Virus record (IMG/VR): IMGVR_UViG_3300035698_010194
Location: 1 to 20,083 of that record
Length of the DNA stretch: 20,083 nucleotides
Source: a virus
Strand: one strand, 5' to 3'
Shown: positions 10,144-20,083 of the stretch, piece by piece
Layout: every line of letters begins with the position of its first letter
Numbering within the stretch: position 1 is the first letter of the stretch
Translations under genes and position numbers: made by a program
Notes under the pieces: model-generated
The model's database searches: none
The model's input: the letters and a program-made list of their open reading frames with translations, nothing else
Told to the model about the DNA's origin: nothing

Positions 10144-11139
10144 CTAATTCGTCCAAAACTTCACTCCAGGCCAGTTGTGATGATGAACACCATCCAGCAT
10201 GTCTCCGCCCCGCGCCACACATCTACGCCCGGCGGAATTCTGGCGGGTTAATTTCGGATGAATCTTTCTTCGCGGAGATTGCAAATCCCCCCACTGCTTA
10301 AAGAAGAACGGGATTGTTGTTTCCCAAGACTCAGGCAGTCGAGCCGCCTGGCATTGGTCCCGCAGAAACCGAACCCACTCCGGGCTCATTGACCGAGCAC
10401 CGGATCCAGACTCCCCGCCACAGATCACCCAGTCCAGTGATGGCGCCGGATTATCACGCCGCTGCTTATACTCATCACAAGGCTCTGAGGTTTCATCCAC
10501 GCACCCGCCACACTCATGACTTTCGCAAACGGTATAAGCCGGTTTTCTTGGCCCCACGGTATAGTCATAAAGATCAACCTTCTCGATCATCGGCTCACAA
10601 CTCACAAACCGAACCACGGCCGGAGTACTCAGCAAATGCGGGATCCGCTCATCAGCCGTCGCCTGGTTCTCAGCTGTCACACCCAGCCACACATTCGGCA
10701 AAGGCCACTCGTAAGCATTTTGGCTTTTAAACCAATCAGCCATTCTCTCTGGGCGTTTTGTTAAAATTATAAAGATGTGTTGCGGACAACTCCCAATAAT
10801 TTCAAATACATTCTCTATCCAATAATCCGGAGTATTCTCATGAAACAGATCACCCATTGAATTAACAAAGATCATCCGCGCCGCTTTCCATTTCAGCGGC
10901 TTTTCAAGAGCCGACTCAACCAGAAGAGTTTCCCCGTTCCACTTTTCAACTGCCCCCTCAGAGTCATGCATTAAACTCAATCGGTAATCGATATTCCCCA
11001 TACACGACAAACGATAAGCCATCTTCTCCGCATAGCAGTTCCGACACCCATCAGAAACCTTCGAGCACCCCACAATAGGGTTCCACGTTTCAGGCTTCCG
11101 CCCCGGAAAATTCAACCATCCAATCTTATGCTTCTTCAT
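10144..11139 (-). CDS. DUF5131 / phage Gp37-Gp68 three-Cys-motif protein
   Basis: The 331-aa protein has the family hallmarks: T-W-N-P-I-V-G-C near residue 18-25, then the three-Cys motif C25, C32, C35 within G-C-R-N-C-Y-A-E. It also has S-M-G-D-L-F-H (about 93-99), a 'LTKRPERM' strand (about 126-133), 'WLGVTAEN', and the C-terminal 'CGGESGSGAR...FFFKQWG' block. These proteins are common in phages and have a radical-SAM-like fold; their reaction is unknown to me. An insertion around residues 200-230 adds a Cys cluster (C-E-S-H-E-C-G-G-C-V-D). Start ATG 11139 has GAGAGAGG upstream and overlaps the preceding stop (TAATG). Confidence 0.88.
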   Translation of the reverse strand: MKKHKIGWLNFPGRKPETWNPIVGCSKVSDGCRNCYAEKMAYRLSCMGNIDYRLSLMHDSEGAVEKWNGETLLVESALEKPLKWKAARMIFVNSMGDLFHENTPDYWIENVFEIIGSCPQHIFIILTKRPERMADWFKSQNAYEWPLPNVWLGVTAENQATADERIPHLLSTPAVVRFVSCEPMIEKVDLYDYTVGPRKPAYTVCESHECGGCVDETSEPCDEYKQRRDNPAPSLDWVICGGESGSGARSMSPEWVRFLRDQCQAARLPESWETTIPFFFKQWGDLQSPRRKIHPKLTRQNSAGRRCVARGGDMLDGVHHHNWPGVKFWTN

Positions 11140-11424: not shown

Positions 11425-11613
11425 TTAAACTTTCCCGACCCTTGACCCAACAGCATTTACCCGCTTCCGATGTTCGATAAACAGCTTCACCTGGGTTCTC
11501 GCCTCTTCGCCCTTAATGCGCCTCAGCGTTCCTTTTTCGTCCCGCTTATAGACGGCACCGCGCACCGATATTTCATGCCCGTTAAACTTATGAGTTCCGT
11601 AGACATAGCCCAT
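11425..11613 (-). CDS. Hypothetical basic protein, 62 aa
   Basis: The ATG at 11613 sits behind GGGGG at seven bases and overlaps the previous stop as TGATG; an in-frame GTG one codon earlier is less likely. The protein is strongly basic: H-K-F-N-G-H-E-I, then K-R-D-E-K-G-T-L-R-R-I-K-G, then an H-R-K-R-V end. It may bind nucleic acid. No family is recognised. It belongs to the tightly coupled run of accessory genes between the helicase and terminase. Confidence 0.6.
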   Translation of the reverse strand: MGYVYGTHKFNGHEISVRGAVYKRDEKGTLRRIKGEEARTQVKLFIEHRKRVNAVGSRVGKV

Positions 11614-12431
11614 CACTCAACCCCCGTTTCCTGCACCGCCTGCAGCCGATCGATCTCAGCAGCTATCAGCGCACCGGCCTTCACCAACTCGCGGACCCGA
11701 TCCTCTGGAGTCGGCTTCCACCAGTACCCGTTCCACTCAACCGGCCAAAGCACTGGATAACCGGAACAGAGACGCCGGCGCCTAAAAGGCAGCGCATAAC
11801 AAGCCGCTGCAACAGCCAGCTCATCGTTCACAGCCTTAGCATCATGCTCAGCATCCCAACCCTCACCCGTGATCTGGCGTAGGCGCTCGAACAGGATTAA
11901 TGAACATCCAAATTTTTCGGATTTACTGATTAAAAAGTCATAGGCAGCGCGATTCCACATAGCATCATCAAGAGCGTTATGCTCACCCTTCACTTGCACT
12001 GGAAGTGTAGGGTTTCCTAGAGAATCAGCCAGCTGCTTGAGGTCGCGGCAGTACATGGGCCAGCCGGCCGGAAGATCAATCATGCTACCCATTAACCAGC
12101 AAAAAGCTACCCAGTCATAATCTGCATAATATGCCCAAAACTCAGGCTTATCATTTCCAACAAAACGCCGGATTGCTGGCCCGATCTGGGACTTTCTCAT
12201 TAGTCCACCGAGTCCACCATCCCGAGTCCACGCATTAAACTCTTTTTTATCTTTCTGACGGGACCATAGTTTTTTTATTACGTTTTCTTTTACCCAGTCG
12301 CTGGCTTTGCTTTCATCAAAATCTGATGACTCTGCGTAAAACTCCCGACCATCTTCAGCAACAATTCCAATACTGATCAGATCGATCGTGCACGGATATT
12401 CGATAAACTCTGTATCAAACCAATACTTCAT
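11613..12431 (-). CDS. DEDD-type 3'-5' exonuclease fused to a C-terminal phage module
   Basis: Residues 1-170 look like the Rv2179c-like 3'-5' exoribonuclease family. W-F-D-T-E-F (Asp6, Glu8) is the first acidic motif, A-D-Y-D-W (about 103-107) the second, and H-N-A-L-D-D (151-156) a DEDDh-like third motif with His151 and Asp156. Residues of about 189-265 carry a different module (G-W-D-A-E-H-D, D-E-L-A-V-A-A-A-C-Y-A-L, W-W-K-P, V-K-A-G-A-L-I-A-A-E-I-D-R-L). I know this module from the C-termini of phage proteins annotated as dATP/dGTP pyrophosphohydrolases. It is found with various N-termini, so the fusion may be a mix-and-match architecture. Start ATG 12431 has GGGAG at six bases and overlaps the upstream gene by 17 bases. 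Confidence 0.78.
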   Translation of the reverse strand: MKYWFDTEFIEYPCTIDLISIGIVAEDGREFYAESSDFDESKASDWVKENVIKKLWSRQKDKKEFNAWTRDGGLGGLMRKSQIGPAIRRFVGNDKPEFWAYYADYDWVAFCWLMGSMIDLPAGWPMYCRDLKQLADSLGNPTLPVQVKGEHNALDDAMWNRAAYDFLISKSEKFGCSLILFERLRQITGEGWDAEHDAKAVNDELAVAAACYALPFRRRRLCSGYPVLWPVEWNGYWWKPTPEDRVRELVKAGALIAAEIDRLQAVQETGVE

Positions 12432-12814: not shown

Positions 12815-13075
12815 TCAATCCCCCATCTCCGCTTTCACTCGCTTCTCAATCTCCACACCAGATCCCGTTGCATCCCCCGAAACCATCCAGTACTGGATAT
12901 GAGCTTTCTCCCCGCTAGCCGCATTAAAACCCGCCTTCATCTCCGCGCACTGCCAATCGTTCTCACACTGGCTCAAAGGTAGATCCTTTTCAGCCCGGCC
13001 CATCTCAGCCACACGGAACCCCGTGGCAAACTGACGGCTTACTCGATCGATTTTAGTTTCAGGTTTTTCGCTCAT
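12815..13075 (-). CDS. Hypothetical protein, 86 aa
   Basis: This small charged protein (M-S-E-K-P-E-T-K) has a G-F-R-V-A-E-M-G-R-A-E-K-D-L-P segment, then W-Q-C-A-E-M-K-A-G-F-N-A-A. The repeated Gly-aromatic/Ala/Gly spacing and second Gly-Phe recall RMF/CrpP-type small proteins, but the match is weak and I do not assign it. Its Shine-Dalgarno is poor. A strong hairpin separates it from the upstream Tad1/Acb2-like gene. Confidence 0.6.
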   Translation of the reverse strand: MSEKPETKIDRVSRQFATGFRVAEMGRAEKDLPLSQCENDWQCAEMKAGFNAASGEKAHIQYWMVSGDATGSGVEIEKRVKAEMGD

Positions 13076-13092
13076 TTGAAATATCCAGGGCA

Positions 13093-13112
13093 GGGGGCGG
13101 CGAACCGCCCCC
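13093..13112 (-). other. Perfect 8-bp GC hairpin with UUCG loop
   Basis: In the 46-bp gap after the Tad1/Acb2-like gene, GGGGGCGG-TTCG-CCGCCCCC (minus strand) forms a perfect stem with a UUCG tetraloop. No T-run follows, so it is not a standard terminator. It may protect the 3' end or lower read-through into the next gene. Confidence 0.6.
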
Positions 13113-13121
13113 GCCGGTTAA

Positions 13122-13823
13122 TTATTCTGCAGCTGGTTTTTCTTCTTCCGTGGTGGGGCCTTCTTCCGTGGTCTCACTACCATCCGGATCCGGCTGGCTG
13201 GTTCCCTCAACGCCGGCGCCAGCGCGAGCGCCTGTCCGGAAGTGCATTGCCGCCAATGCTCTTTCAACACCATCCAAAGCGATCGCATTTTCTTCACAGG
13301 CATAATCACCCGCCTGGAAGCCATCCAAACGATCCTTCACGATCGCCAGTAGCGCCTCACAGCTGATCCCATTCGGTCCGACCTCAGCAACCGGTCCTTC
13401 CTGGAAGTGGATATGGATTGGGGGCTGCGTTCCACTGCTTAGAATCGCGTAGAAATGGCTGGCATTCCCTGGGCCCGGCTTATCCAGAACCACCACACCA
13501 ATAGCCTCATCCATTCCGGCGCCGCACTGATGCGCAGTAAGTTCCCGCGGCTCTTCCAAACGGTTTTCTGGAAGCGGCTGCGGAATATTCCGGACCTCAT
13601 TGCCCGGATATTCAGTTTCAGGTTCATTTTCAACCGGCGCTGGCTTCTTCAGCACCTTCTCAAAATCACCATCTTCAAACACAACACGCTTCGCGTCATT
13701 AATCGCATGCGAGAAGACCAGCATATTTAATGCAACGTCTTCATTTTTCACGGCCTTATTGCCGGATGCGAGATTCTCCCGCGTAACAACTACGGTTCCT
13801 TCTTCAACTTTGTCTTCATCCAT
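13122..13823 (-). CDS. Tad1/Acb2-type cyclic-nucleotide sponge, extended
   Basis: Residues of about 100-208 match the Tad1 layout (Acb2/Tad1 hairpin family). A beta part comes first (A-I-G-V-V-V-L-D, H-F-Y-A-I-L, I-H-I-H-F-Q-E-G-P, N-G). A helical hairpin follows: C-E-A-L-L-A-I-V-K-D-R-L-D-G-F-Q-A-G-D-Y, E-E-N-A-I-A-L, F-R-T-G-A-R and G-V-E-G-T. Phe169, Asn179, Arg196 and Arg200 keep the 10, 17 and 4 residue spacing of the ligand-binding F82, N92, R109 and R113 that I recall for cbTad1. Tad1 sequesters the TIR signal gcADPR (Thoeris), and relatives bind CBASS cyclic nucleotides. The ligand here is unproven. At 233 aa it is longer than the roughly 125-145 usual, with a 95-residue N-terminal extension and an acidic tail. 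Start ATG 13823 has AGGAGA upstream. Confidence 0.82.
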   Translation of the reverse strand: MDEDKVEEGTVVVTRENLASGNKAVKNEDVALNMLVFSHAINDAKRVVFEDGDFEKVLKKPAPVENEPETEYPGNEVRNIPQPLPENRLEEPRELTAHQCGAGMDEAIGVVVLDKPGPGNASHFYAILSSGTQPPIHIHFQEGPVAEVGPNGISCEALLAIVKDRLDGFQAGDYACEENAIALDGVERALAAMHFRTGARAGAGVEGTSQPDPDGSETTEEGPTTEEEKPAAE

Positions 13824-13842
13824 TTTATCTTTCTCCTGTTTT

Positions 13843-13862: not shown

Positions 13863-14090
13863 TTATTTAGGCTCTCCGGTTCTTTCGGCATTGATCTGCC
13901 GTTTCATATCCCGGCCAATCCCCTGAGCCAGAGCCTGAGTGGCAGCCATCCCGATCGGTAGGGTCTCCATGCTCCCATCAACACACTTCGCGCGATTTCC
14001 AGAAAACAACTCATGCAGCTGAACTTGATGTACATTGCCCGCGCCGTCGCAGAAACAGATCCACCAGTCTTTAGTCACTTTTGCACTCAT
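13863..14090 (-). CDS. Hypothetical protein, 75 aa
   Basis: ATG 14090 overlaps the helicase stop (ATGA) and has a very good GAGGAGG eight bases upstream. The product begins M-S-A-K-V-T-K-D-W-W-I-C-F-C-D-G and ends in a charged helix (G-R-D-M-K-R-Q-I-N-A-E-R). The first half may form a small beta sheet with three Cys. I recognise no family. Its strong ribosome-binding site suggests it is well expressed. Confidence 0.7.
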   Translation of the reverse strand: MSAKVTKDWWICFCDGAGNVHQVQLHELFSGNRAKCVDGSMETLPIGMAATQALAQGIGRDMKRQINAERTGEPK

Positions 14091-15598
14091 ATAATTACCT
14101 CCTCGCTTGGAAGCTCATAATCACTGTCATCATTTATGTAAGCAGAAGGGGGATGTGCCGGTTGGCCGCGCGCAACGTTTTCGGCAGCAACTTCAAAAGC
14201 TTTTTCACCAGCCTCAACAAAAGTAAAGTAGTGGGCATAAAGCCACATCTCGAACCGCCCGATTGGGCCGTTTTTATTTTTCGCATTATCAAACCAAACC
14301 GGACGAATATGGTTTTCTTCGGGCGCGCCATGATGCGTAATCTTCCCGCTCATATCCTTCAAATCACGGTCACGGCTTAGCAACCAGATCCCGTGCGCAA
14401 CCTCTGCCAGCTCTCCGGATCCGCGCAAATCCTTCATCATCGCAAAACGGGACATTCCCTTGCCCTCATTATTAAATTGTGAGAGAGCCAAAACCGGACA
14501 CTTCAGCTCGCGCCCCAGGCGTTTATAGGCTTTCGCAATCGAAGCCAGAGCATAGTTACCCATCATATCAACCTTATGATCCCCGATCCGGCTCAGCTGG
14601 ATATAGTCGACAACAATCAGCTTAATTTTGCCCTTCATCGAAAGCATACGGGCCTTAGACTGCTGTTCCGCCAGGGTACTGCTGTCTTCATCAATCACGA
14701 TCGGTAACCGGCTCAATGGTTCCGCTGAATCAATAAACCGCTGGATCTGTGCATGCCCCCCAAAACCCTTCTGCAACTTAGGGAGACTCGCCCGGGATGC
14801 TGCCGTCATATCACGCGCCGCATGCTCCTCCGCATCCGCATCAAGGGAAAACACAACCACCTGTTCACTACCGCTACACCCGCGGGCAACATGCTTTAAA
14901 ATCTGCGCGGCCATCGTCGTCTTTCCGGAACTCTGCTCTCCACCCAGCAGATACAGATAATTCCGCATCCCGCCACCCATAGACTTATCTAATTCTTCAA
15001 TTCCCGTTTCTACGTAGGGCGGAGGACCAACTGGAATTCCCTTCCGGATTTTTTGCTGACGTTCGGTTACTGACCGGATCTCTTCGATCACATGGTCATA
15101 CGCATCACGACGGTTCACTTCATCGATAACATCATCAGCGATAGACAGAAACTTTTCCGGAATCTGTGATAAAAGTTTTTCCGCATCTTCTGTTTTATTC
15201 CTAAACGCCTCATCAATCACCTGTGTTGCAACCCATATAACGGATCTGGCAATCCACTTCTGACGAATAATCAGGATATAATATTCCGCATGCGCTGGCG
15301 TAGGTGTTGAATCCATCAACCCCTCAAGAAATTGATGTCCGCCGGCCACATCCAGCTTGCCAGCGTCCTCCAGCTTATGACCGATCGTAACCTGATCAAT
15401 CTCTTCACAGGCCGACAGCATACTGCACATAACTTCCCAGACATGCTTATGAGCAGGAACATAAAACGAATCCGAAACTATCTTATATTTATTAATCCCC
15501 AACGGAATCACCGTCACCGGATCCATCATCGCAGACCCCAAAACCGCCCGCTCCGCCTCTTCACTGTACGGGGGCAATCTGTTATATTCCTCACTCAT
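14087..15598 (-). CDS. dnaB: DnaB-type replicative DNA helicase
   Basis: The 503-aa protein has both DnaB domains. The N-terminal primase-interacting domain (P-P-Y-S-E-E-A-E-R-A-V-L-G-S-A-M at about 9-24) is followed by a RecA-like motor. Walker A is G-G-E-Q-S-S-G-K-T-T at 219-228 and Walker B is L-I-V-V-D-Y-I-Q-L at 327-335. Downstream, C-P-V-L-A-L-S-Q-F-N is the usual DnaB motif with the sensor Gln. It unwinds the phage fork as a hexamer. I start at ATG 15598 with GGAG nine bases upstream; the codon before it is TTG and could also serve. No loader gene is obvious. The initiator-like gene at 18548-19363 may recruit it. Confidence 0.95.
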   Translation of the reverse strand: MSEEYNRLPPYSEEAERAVLGSAMMDPVTVIPLGINKYKIVSDSFYVPAHKHVWEVMCSMLSACEEIDQVTIGHKLEDAGKLDVAGGHQFLEGLMDSTPTPAHAEYYILIIRQKWIARSVIWVATQVIDEAFRNKTEDAEKLLSQIPEKFLSIADDVIDEVNRRDAYDHVIEEIRSVTERQQKIRKGIPVGPPPYVETGIEELDKSMGGGMRNYLYLLGGEQSSGKTTMAAQILKHVARGCSGSEQVVVFSLDADAEEHAARDMTAASRASLPKLQKGFGGHAQIQRFIDSAEPLSRLPIVIDEDSSTLAEQQSKARMLSMKGKIKLIVVDYIQLSRIGDHKVDMMGNYALASIAKAYKRLGRELKCPVLALSQFNNEGKGMSRFAMMKDLRGSGELAEVAHGIWLLSRDRDLKDMSGKITHHGAPEENHIRPVWFDNAKNKNGPIGRFEMWLYAHYFTFVEAGEKAFEVAAENVARGQPAHPPSAYINDDSDYELPSEEVII

Positions 15599-15667
15599 CA
15601 ATTAATTCTCCAGTCCAGCCGACAGGTCACTGCAGAGCAGGGGCGCTGCCGATCGGATGGTTAAGGT

Positions 15668-16907: not shown

Positions 16908-17084
16908 TCAACAAACCACCTTATAAAAATCAAAGAACTCCTCCCGCGGCGGTGACTCCAATCTGGATCCGCGGCGCAGCATCACTTTCTTCTCCCCAAA
17001 ATAGTCAACATGCCAGCACTCACCCGTAGGCTCACACCGCACAATCTCCGGATCCCCATGCTCAAAATTCCACTGCTCACTCAT
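16908..17084 (-). CDS. Small hypothetical protein, 58 aa
   Basis: The ATG at 17084 overlaps the methyltransferase stop (ATGA), and the frame runs 58 codons to TGA 16908-16910. It begins M-S-E-Q-W-N-F-E-H-G-D-P-E-I-V-R-C and ends F-F-D-F-Y-K-V-V-C. The sequence is acidic with several Trp/Phe/Tyr and three Cys. No family is recognised. The coupled start and lack of any other gene here argue that it is real. Confidence 0.6.
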   Translation of the reverse strand: MSEQWNFEHGDPEIVRCEPTGECWHVDYFGEKKVMLRRGSRLESPPREEFFDFYKVVC

Positions 17085-18502
17085 GCCGCTGCCGTCCAGT
17101 TTTCAACAACCTGCTCCGCCAGAGCGACTGACTGATTAACCTCAACAGCGTTCCCAATCTGCTTTTTCACATCGGTTTTTGTTCCGGCGAATTTGTAATC
17201 AGTGAACCCCATGCCGGCCGCCAACTCATGCGGCTCAAGCAGGCGATAACGGATGTCAAAAATCGCAGGCTGGATCAGCCCGAATCGATCCTTTGTCGTA
17301 ACTGTCGGCAAAGGCTGATTAGTTGAAACAGCATTCGCACCCGATCCAAAGTATTTCACCAGGAAGGGCTCACAGACGTTGAGATGCCCAGGGCCTGCGG
17401 TGACGGTTGGGAGCGGGGCATCCATTCGAACCGATTTGCTTTGCCCACGCATCACCGTCAGAAACGGCTCAATCAGACTAAACCGGTTCGACGTATCCAG
17501 CGTCATAAGAGGCTGGTCGACGCCATAACAGCGAGTATGTCCGCTCGACCCGCCGTGATACTTAGCAAAGAACGGCGACGGCTGGGCCAGGGCGATGTTT
17601 GTCCCGCTCGTTGTAACCGTCGGTAGCGGCCGGTTGATCGATCGCGCCTTGCCCGTTCCGTACAGCATCACCAGGAACGGCTCCGGATCGATCCCGCTAA
17701 TATGCTCAAGGCCCCAAAGGATCCAGTCGATCGTGTTCTTAACCAGCGGGTTTTTGCCGGCCAGTTTTCCCGCCTGGCGCATAAAGAGACTATCGCCCTT
17801 CAAGCCCCAATCGATCACATCGCGAGCAGAGTGCCAGTGTTTAACGAACGGCCGATCCGGACTCTTTACATGCGTAATTTCCGGCCAGCCCGCAAAAGGG
17901 ATCCCTTTATGAGCAATCATAAAGAACCGCTCCCGAGCAGTATAGGCGCCATAATTCGCAGAATTTAGCACCGCGTAATCGATGGAGTAACCTAGGGCCC
18001 GCAACCCATCACAAAACGCGCGGAAATCTCGACCGCGCTGATGCGGGATCGGAGTGCCGGCCTTGTACCGTTTCCCCTTATACGTTGTATTGCGGGAATA
18101 GGTCGGCCCCCACTGCATAAACTCCCGAACATTCTCCAGCACGATCGTCGGGATCTCAAGCGACGACACCCATCGCAAAACATCATTCGCACCGCTGCGG
18201 CTCTGCTCATCACACTCACCGCCCCCTCTAGCGTTCGAGTGATAGATGCACTCAGGCGACGCCGTTAGGCAGTCCATGTATCCATCCGGTGCCACATCGT
18301 GCGGATCCACCTCAAATACTGACTCACAAAAATGTCGCGCCTCCGGATGATTCAGAGAATGAGTTTCAACCGCTTTCTCCCAGTGATTGATCGCAGTAAG
18401 ATCAAACGGGATTCCCCGACTCTCACATACTCGCCGGAACCCCTCAGAGAACCCGCCGGCACCAGCAAACAAATCAACCATTCTGAATATTCGATCACTC
18501 AT
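17081..18502 (-). CDS. Cytosine-C5 DNA methyltransferase with P-E-C catalytic motif
   Basis: The 473-aa enzyme transfers a methyl group from SAM to cytosine C5 in DNA. Motif I is V-D-L-F-A-G-A-G-G at 9-17. The catalytic loop is A-S-P-E-C at 81-85 (Cys85), where most members have P-P-C. Motif VI is E-N-V at 123-125, R190/R192 form motif VIII, and motifs IX/X are near 421-455 (K-Q-I-G-N-A-V). The target-recognition region (about 274-410) has four repeats of 33-37 residues built on P-L-P-T-V-T-T and E-P-F-L. No restriction enzyme gene is adjacent, so it is an orphan, probably protective against host restriction. ATG 18502 has GAGGTG five bases upstream. Confidence 0.92.
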   Translation of the reverse strand: MSDRIFRMVDLFAGAGGFSEGFRRVCESRGIPFDLTAINHWEKAVETHSLNHPEARHFCESVFEVDPHDVAPDGYMDCLTASPECIYHSNARGGGECDEQSRSGANDVLRWVSSLEIPTIVLENVREFMQWGPTYSRNTTYKGKRYKAGTPIPHQRGRDFRAFCDGLRALGYSIDYAVLNSANYGAYTARERFFMIAHKGIPFAGWPEITHVKSPDRPFVKHWHSARDVIDWGLKGDSLFMRQAGKLAGKNPLVKNTIDWILWGLEHISGIDPEPFLVMLYGTGKARSINRPLPTVTTSGTNIALAQPSPFFAKYHGGSSGHTRCYGVDQPLMTLDTSNRFSLIEPFLTVMRGQSKSVRMDAPLPTVTAGPGHLNVCEPFLVKYFGSGANAVSTNQPLPTVTTKDRFGLIQPAIFDIRYRLLEPHELAAGMGFTDYKFAGTKTDVKKQIGNAVEVNQSVALAEQVVENWTAAA

Positions 18503-19927: not shown

Positions 19928-20083
19928 TTATAATCCCAAAATCTCGATTGCATAATTTACTATTTTTAGGCGGATCTCTTTCTTAGCATCGGCGGCATCG
20001 GCGGCGGCGGCATAGGCGGCATCGGCGGCGGCGGCATAGGCGGCATAGGCATAGGCGGCATAGGCATAGGCGGCATAGGCATC
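19928..20083 (-). CDS. Ala/Tyr/Asp-repeat protein, C-terminal end only
   Basis: The frame is open from the right edge to TAA 19928-19930, showing 51 residues; the 5' part is outside the window. Residues 1-33 of the visible piece are A-Y-A-A, A-A-Y-A and A-A-D-A repeats, followed by K-K-E-I-R-L-K-I-V-N-Y-A-I. Many phage and bacterial proteins end in such Ala/Tyr/Asp arrays, probably helical, but I cannot name the function. It ends 17 bases before the next start and is therefore in the same run of genes. Confidence 0.75.
   Translation of the reverse strand, partial: DAYAAYAYAAYAYAAYAAAADAAYAAAADAADAKKEIRLKIVNYAIEILGL
19986..20083. repeat. GGC-rich microsatellite (GGCATA/GGCATC units)
   Basis: The plus strand ends in about 98 bases of GGC, GGCATA and GGCATC units. 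It encodes the Ala/Tyr/Asp stretch of the minus-strand gene and continues past the edge. All units are multiples of three, so length changes would keep the frame. Confidence 0.85.

Follow-up and report, generated by a model that had tools for sequence, protein, structure and literature searches.

Tad1 proteins soak up the nucleotide alarm signals that bacteria raise against phages, and they form hexamers whose pockets are shared between protomers. The Acb2 sponge is built differently, each protomer consisting of a short N-terminal helix and two long helices with no beta-sheet, while Acb4 and Tad2 have folds and sequences of their own. Solved Tad1 structures include CbTad1 from a Clostridium botulinum prophage (PDB 7uav, 7uaw, 8smd, 8kbe and 8kbf) and CmTad1 (PDB 8kbb-8kbd). 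Another solved protein, gp184 of phage phiKZ (PHIKZ184, orf184; PDB 8y6v chain I), is the reported Tad1 of a CBASS-resistant phage (PMC12043709). It is reported to block both CBASS and Thoeris (PMC12043709, PMC13282480) and to enter the cell by injection (PMC10449902, PMC13282480).

Here, we analyze a 233-residue gene product encoded in a 20,083-nucleotide stretch of DNA from an uncultivated phage (hereafter the window), and conclude from its sequence that it is very probably a Tad1-family nucleotide sponge serving phage counter-defence. With it, a known family of counter-defence proteins gains a member in an uncultivated phage lineage, and the sponge gene is seen to be an insertion beside the replication module that is either present or absent. 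The protein is a somewhat divergent new Tad1 within an already known family; it is an ordinary member apart from an extra N-terminal stretch, and leaves the understanding of that family unchanged.

The open reading frame list, translation and codon usage place the gene at 13122-13823 on the minus strand, stop codon included, with an ATG start. The good ribosome-binding site claimed for it in the first-pass annotation is indeed present, an AGGAG at 13833-13837 (minus strand) lying 9 nt 5' of the ATG. Codon usage in the claimed frame resembles that of the other phage genes along the whole protein, with coding scores of 0.29, 0.20 and 0.25 nats per codon for residues 1-91, 92-210 and 211-233, compared with 0.04-0.34 for other genes; over the N-terminal segment, every alternative frame, sense and antisense, scores below zero on codon usage. 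Directly 3' of the stop codon lies a strong hairpin, GGGGGCGG-UUCG-CCGCCCCC (13089-13115, minus strand), with a folding energy of -25.6 kcal/mol for a 66-nt segment (z -2.4) and no clear T-run, which is possibly a transcript end or stabilizer.

The identity of the protein as a Tad1/Acb2-type sponge, proposed from the sequence in the first pass, is supported by three lines of evidence that agree on Tad1: sequence, predicted fold and ligand-pocket residues. Searching solved chains with phmmer returned only Tad1 proteins and phiKZ gp184, with gp184 as the best match (E 1.8e-15), followed by CmTad1 (E 1.1e-12) and CbTad1 (E 5.6e-10). In PHROGs the protein matched phrog_2428 (E 9.7e-25), phrog_22140 (9.9e-17) and phrog_23843 (3e-16), none of which has a named function. 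The scores against the two solved Tad1 chains and against phrog_2428 place the match with Tad1 well past chance. Among named phages, 131 records match the window protein, all at less than 60% identity, and include phages of Rhizobium, Lactococcus, Bacillus, Pseudomonas and Vibrio.

No Pfam, NCBIfam or PADLOC model matched the window protein, and the family model for the Acb2/Tad1 hairpin, PF24729, through which the annotation was to be checked, likewise misses the protein itself; taken alone, this outcome counts against the annotation. PF24729 serves to detect the family and does not define it, and we attribute its miss to the limited sensitivity of a short model (58 positions): it matches 56 of the 67 close relatives, and of nine sequences in a set with phiKZ gp184 among them it finds two and misses seven. 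In 10 control genomes PF24729 gave signals of which none exceeded the cut-off, indicating that they are noise.

Structural prediction with AlphaFold2, using a 67-row alignment as input, placed most of the Tad1 domain at block pLDDT values of about 92-98 and residues 1-87 at low ones. Tad1 architecture had been assigned to residues 100-208; the domain itself stands, but its limits shift to about residues 88-210 (13194-13562, minus strand), as delineated with AlphaFold2, Foldseek and phmmer. Within it, four predicted beta-strands (residues 88-95, 108-114, 124-129 and 136-140) are followed by two long helices (155-171 and 177-203). The first 20 Foldseek matches in the PDB, below 1e-3, are all Tad1 structures, and the best was CbTad1 with 1''-2' gcADPR (E 5.5e-9, TM 0.84 on the target, rmsd 2.3), in agreement with the proposed resemblance to Tad1. 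The best BFVD match is a phage protein of 251 aa named Acb2/Tad1 hairpin domain-containing, and the window phage is thus not alone in encoding a long Tad1 protein.

The model also separates Tad1 from other sponges. Acb2 shares the helical hairpin, and its function as a nucleotide sponge is the one predicted for the window protein, but it lacks the N-terminal beta-strands, and because four such strands precede the hairpin in the AlphaFold2 model, the protein is by its predicted fold a Tad1 specifically and not an Acb2. Neither Acb4 nor Tad2 appeared among the PDB fold or sequence results for the window protein.

Comparison with the solved proteins locates both the shared core and the differences. 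CbTad1 has the same predicted fold, the four pocket residues and the FQxG loop, at about 35% identity in the structural alignment, but lacks the 87-residue N-terminal extension and the acidic tail of the window protein. CmTad1 is homologous across window residues 133-210 and shares with it a G-x-N-G loop that is absent from CbTad1; it too lacks the N-terminal extension. In layout phiKZ gp184 is similar, with about 230 aa and a C-terminal Tad1 domain as in the window protein. It is reported as injected virion cargo of a jumbo phage, and its N-terminal region is not recognizably homologous to that of the window protein.

The four residues whose spacing had been noted in the first pass, Phe169, Asn179, Arg196 and Arg200, fall in the exact alignment columns of CbTad1 F82, N92, R109 and R113 (after a one-residue offset in the numbering of the CbTad1 chain), which we take to be ligand-pocket residues, and the same residues occur in CmTad1. 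Their codons lie on the minus strand at 13317-13319, 13287-13289, 13236-13238 and 13224-13226, respectively. Across 67 viral-contig sequences N179, R196 and R200 are invariant (67/67) and F169 is present in 66. Most of these sequences were retrieved with a pattern limited to positions 169-178, and N179, R196 and R200 were therefore not preselected. Further invariant positions include F140, Q141, G143, G152, E156, R165, Q170, G172, E206 and G207, and the loop residues F140-Q141-x-G143 and G149/N151/G152 are intact in the window protein. Given the exact column match and the superposition of the model on ligand-bound CbTad1, the four residues are predicted to face one pocket.

By homology, the window protein would bind gcADPR made by TIR proteins and probably also cyclic di- or trinucleotides. 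As in other members of the family, it is expected to form a hexamer, a trimer of dimers, and to hold the bound nucleotides uncleaved, such that Thoeris and/or CBASS effectors would stay inactive.

A different possibility is that the protein keeps the Tad1 fold but no longer binds nucleotides and now has another role, for example a structural or regulatory one. The window protein departs from the 67-sequence alignment at conserved positions, with W192 replaced by Ala (Trp in 61/67) and R203 replaced by Ala (Arg in 64/67), in addition to a change of L193 to Met; the two Ala residues stand where CbTad1 has W105 and R116. Both 192 and 203 are also changed in the sister protein from contig L002, the nearest Tad1 (59-60% identical), which pairs with the window protein in the tree with support of 100/97, and the window protein sits on a long branch. 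However, the four pocket residues and both loops are intact, and phiKZ gp184, a reported active Tad1, has neither the Trp nor the Arg at these positions in the alignment, which shows that W192 and R203 are not essential in every Tad1. A loss of binding is thus very unlikely, although the C-terminal changes W192A and R203A could alter affinity or ligand choice, and the divergent pair formed by the window and L002 proteins is useful for testing which residues a Tad1 needs.

The other departure from the solved sponges is the N-terminal extension (residues 1-87; 13563-13823, minus strand), which is acidic, becomes rich in Pro and Glu towards its end and is mostly of low confidence in the model. 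It is real coding sequence: we rejected an artefact of a start called too far upstream, since the ATG has a good ribosome-binding site and codon usage in the extension is that of a coding region. A search with the extension alone, using a tool sensitive to close relatives only, found no relatives. Together with the acidic C-terminal tail (residues 211-233; 13125-13193, minus strand), it is probably a flexible addition. Since gp184, a Tad1 of 230 aa, likewise has an N-terminal extension and is injected into cells (PMC10449902, PMC13282480), we considered whether the window protein might also travel in the virion, with the extension serving for packaging and a pre-made sponge present at the start of infection; if true, the phage would deliver a signal trap together with its DNA. 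Homologues of Tad1 in Lactococcus phage 1706 and in other phages carry annotations as structural proteins, and in two other tad1-carrying sequences, L003 and L004, tad1 directly follows a portal-like gene. In the window, by contrast, the gene has the replication module on one side and the terminase on the other, outside the head module, no prohead protease was recognized, and the extension has no substantial alignment to that of gp184. Carriage in the virion is accordingly quite unlikely. It is likewise improbable that the extension causes the sponge of this non-jumbo phage to be packaged in the virion or targeted in some other way, packaging of the gp184 kind being unsupported.

The Tad1-family sponge reading also fits the distribution of the gene. 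The DnaB-type replicative helicase (14087-15601, minus strand; Pfam DnaB_C and DnaB N) is followed by a 75-aa open reading frame (13863-14090, minus strand) that overlaps the helicase stop and is kept in L002, L112 and L113; the tad1-like gene is thus the second gene after the helicase rather than directly downstream of it, as had been claimed. An 86-aa reading frame (12815-13075, minus strand) lies in the same region of the window. L002 shares DnaB (58% identity), the 75-aa gene (63%) and tad1 with the window, whereas the two TerL proteins have just 29% identity. L112 and L113, with TerL at 58-59% and DnaB at 50%, have the 75-aa and 86-aa genes in common with the window and yet carry no tad1 at the matching site or elsewhere in their contigs (43 kb and 20 kb, possibly fragments). 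In L112 the 86-aa frame directly follows the 75-aa frame, and in L113 it lies slightly further down. As these two contigs share the neighbours but not tad1, the gene comes and goes at this site, and its lack in the closest packaging relatives is as expected for an accessory counter-defence gene.

Relatives in bacterial assemblies include contigs of Verrucomicrobiota, Spirochaetota, Pseudomonadota and Bacillota, which do not fix the host, and the phage lineage has almost no named relatives, with one distant terminase match. In L003 (5714-8360) and L004 (6025-8306), tad1 lies directly after a large portal-like frame, identified by reading only, and before scaffold-like and capsid-like frames; this order suggests that some Tad1 proteins are expressed late or associate with the virion. 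In L002 (7252-7944), a region resembling ribosome modulation factor (RMF) precedes the Tad1 domain in frame; it would be left out if translation began at an internal GTG, which has a ribosome-binding site. We rejected the RMF-like reading of this N-terminal half, as the PF04957 match is below the cut-off (E 0.066), and it has no bearing on the window protein.

Other genes on the minus strand of the window include one for a DUF5131 (radical SAM-like) protein (10144-11139), also matched by the PADLOC candidate models PDC-M41B and PDC-M30B, and one for an RNase AS / Rv2179c-like exoribonuclease (11613-12431), whose C-terminal part matches several phage families of unnamed function. A cytosine-5 DNA methyltransferase (17081-18502) is possibly a second counter-defence gene. 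Low-complexity repeats occupy both ends of the window, at 1-280 (SNDLDTAEGTLSGLVTSVGT units) and at 19928-20083 (Ala/Tyr/Asp-rich), and probably stopped the assembly.
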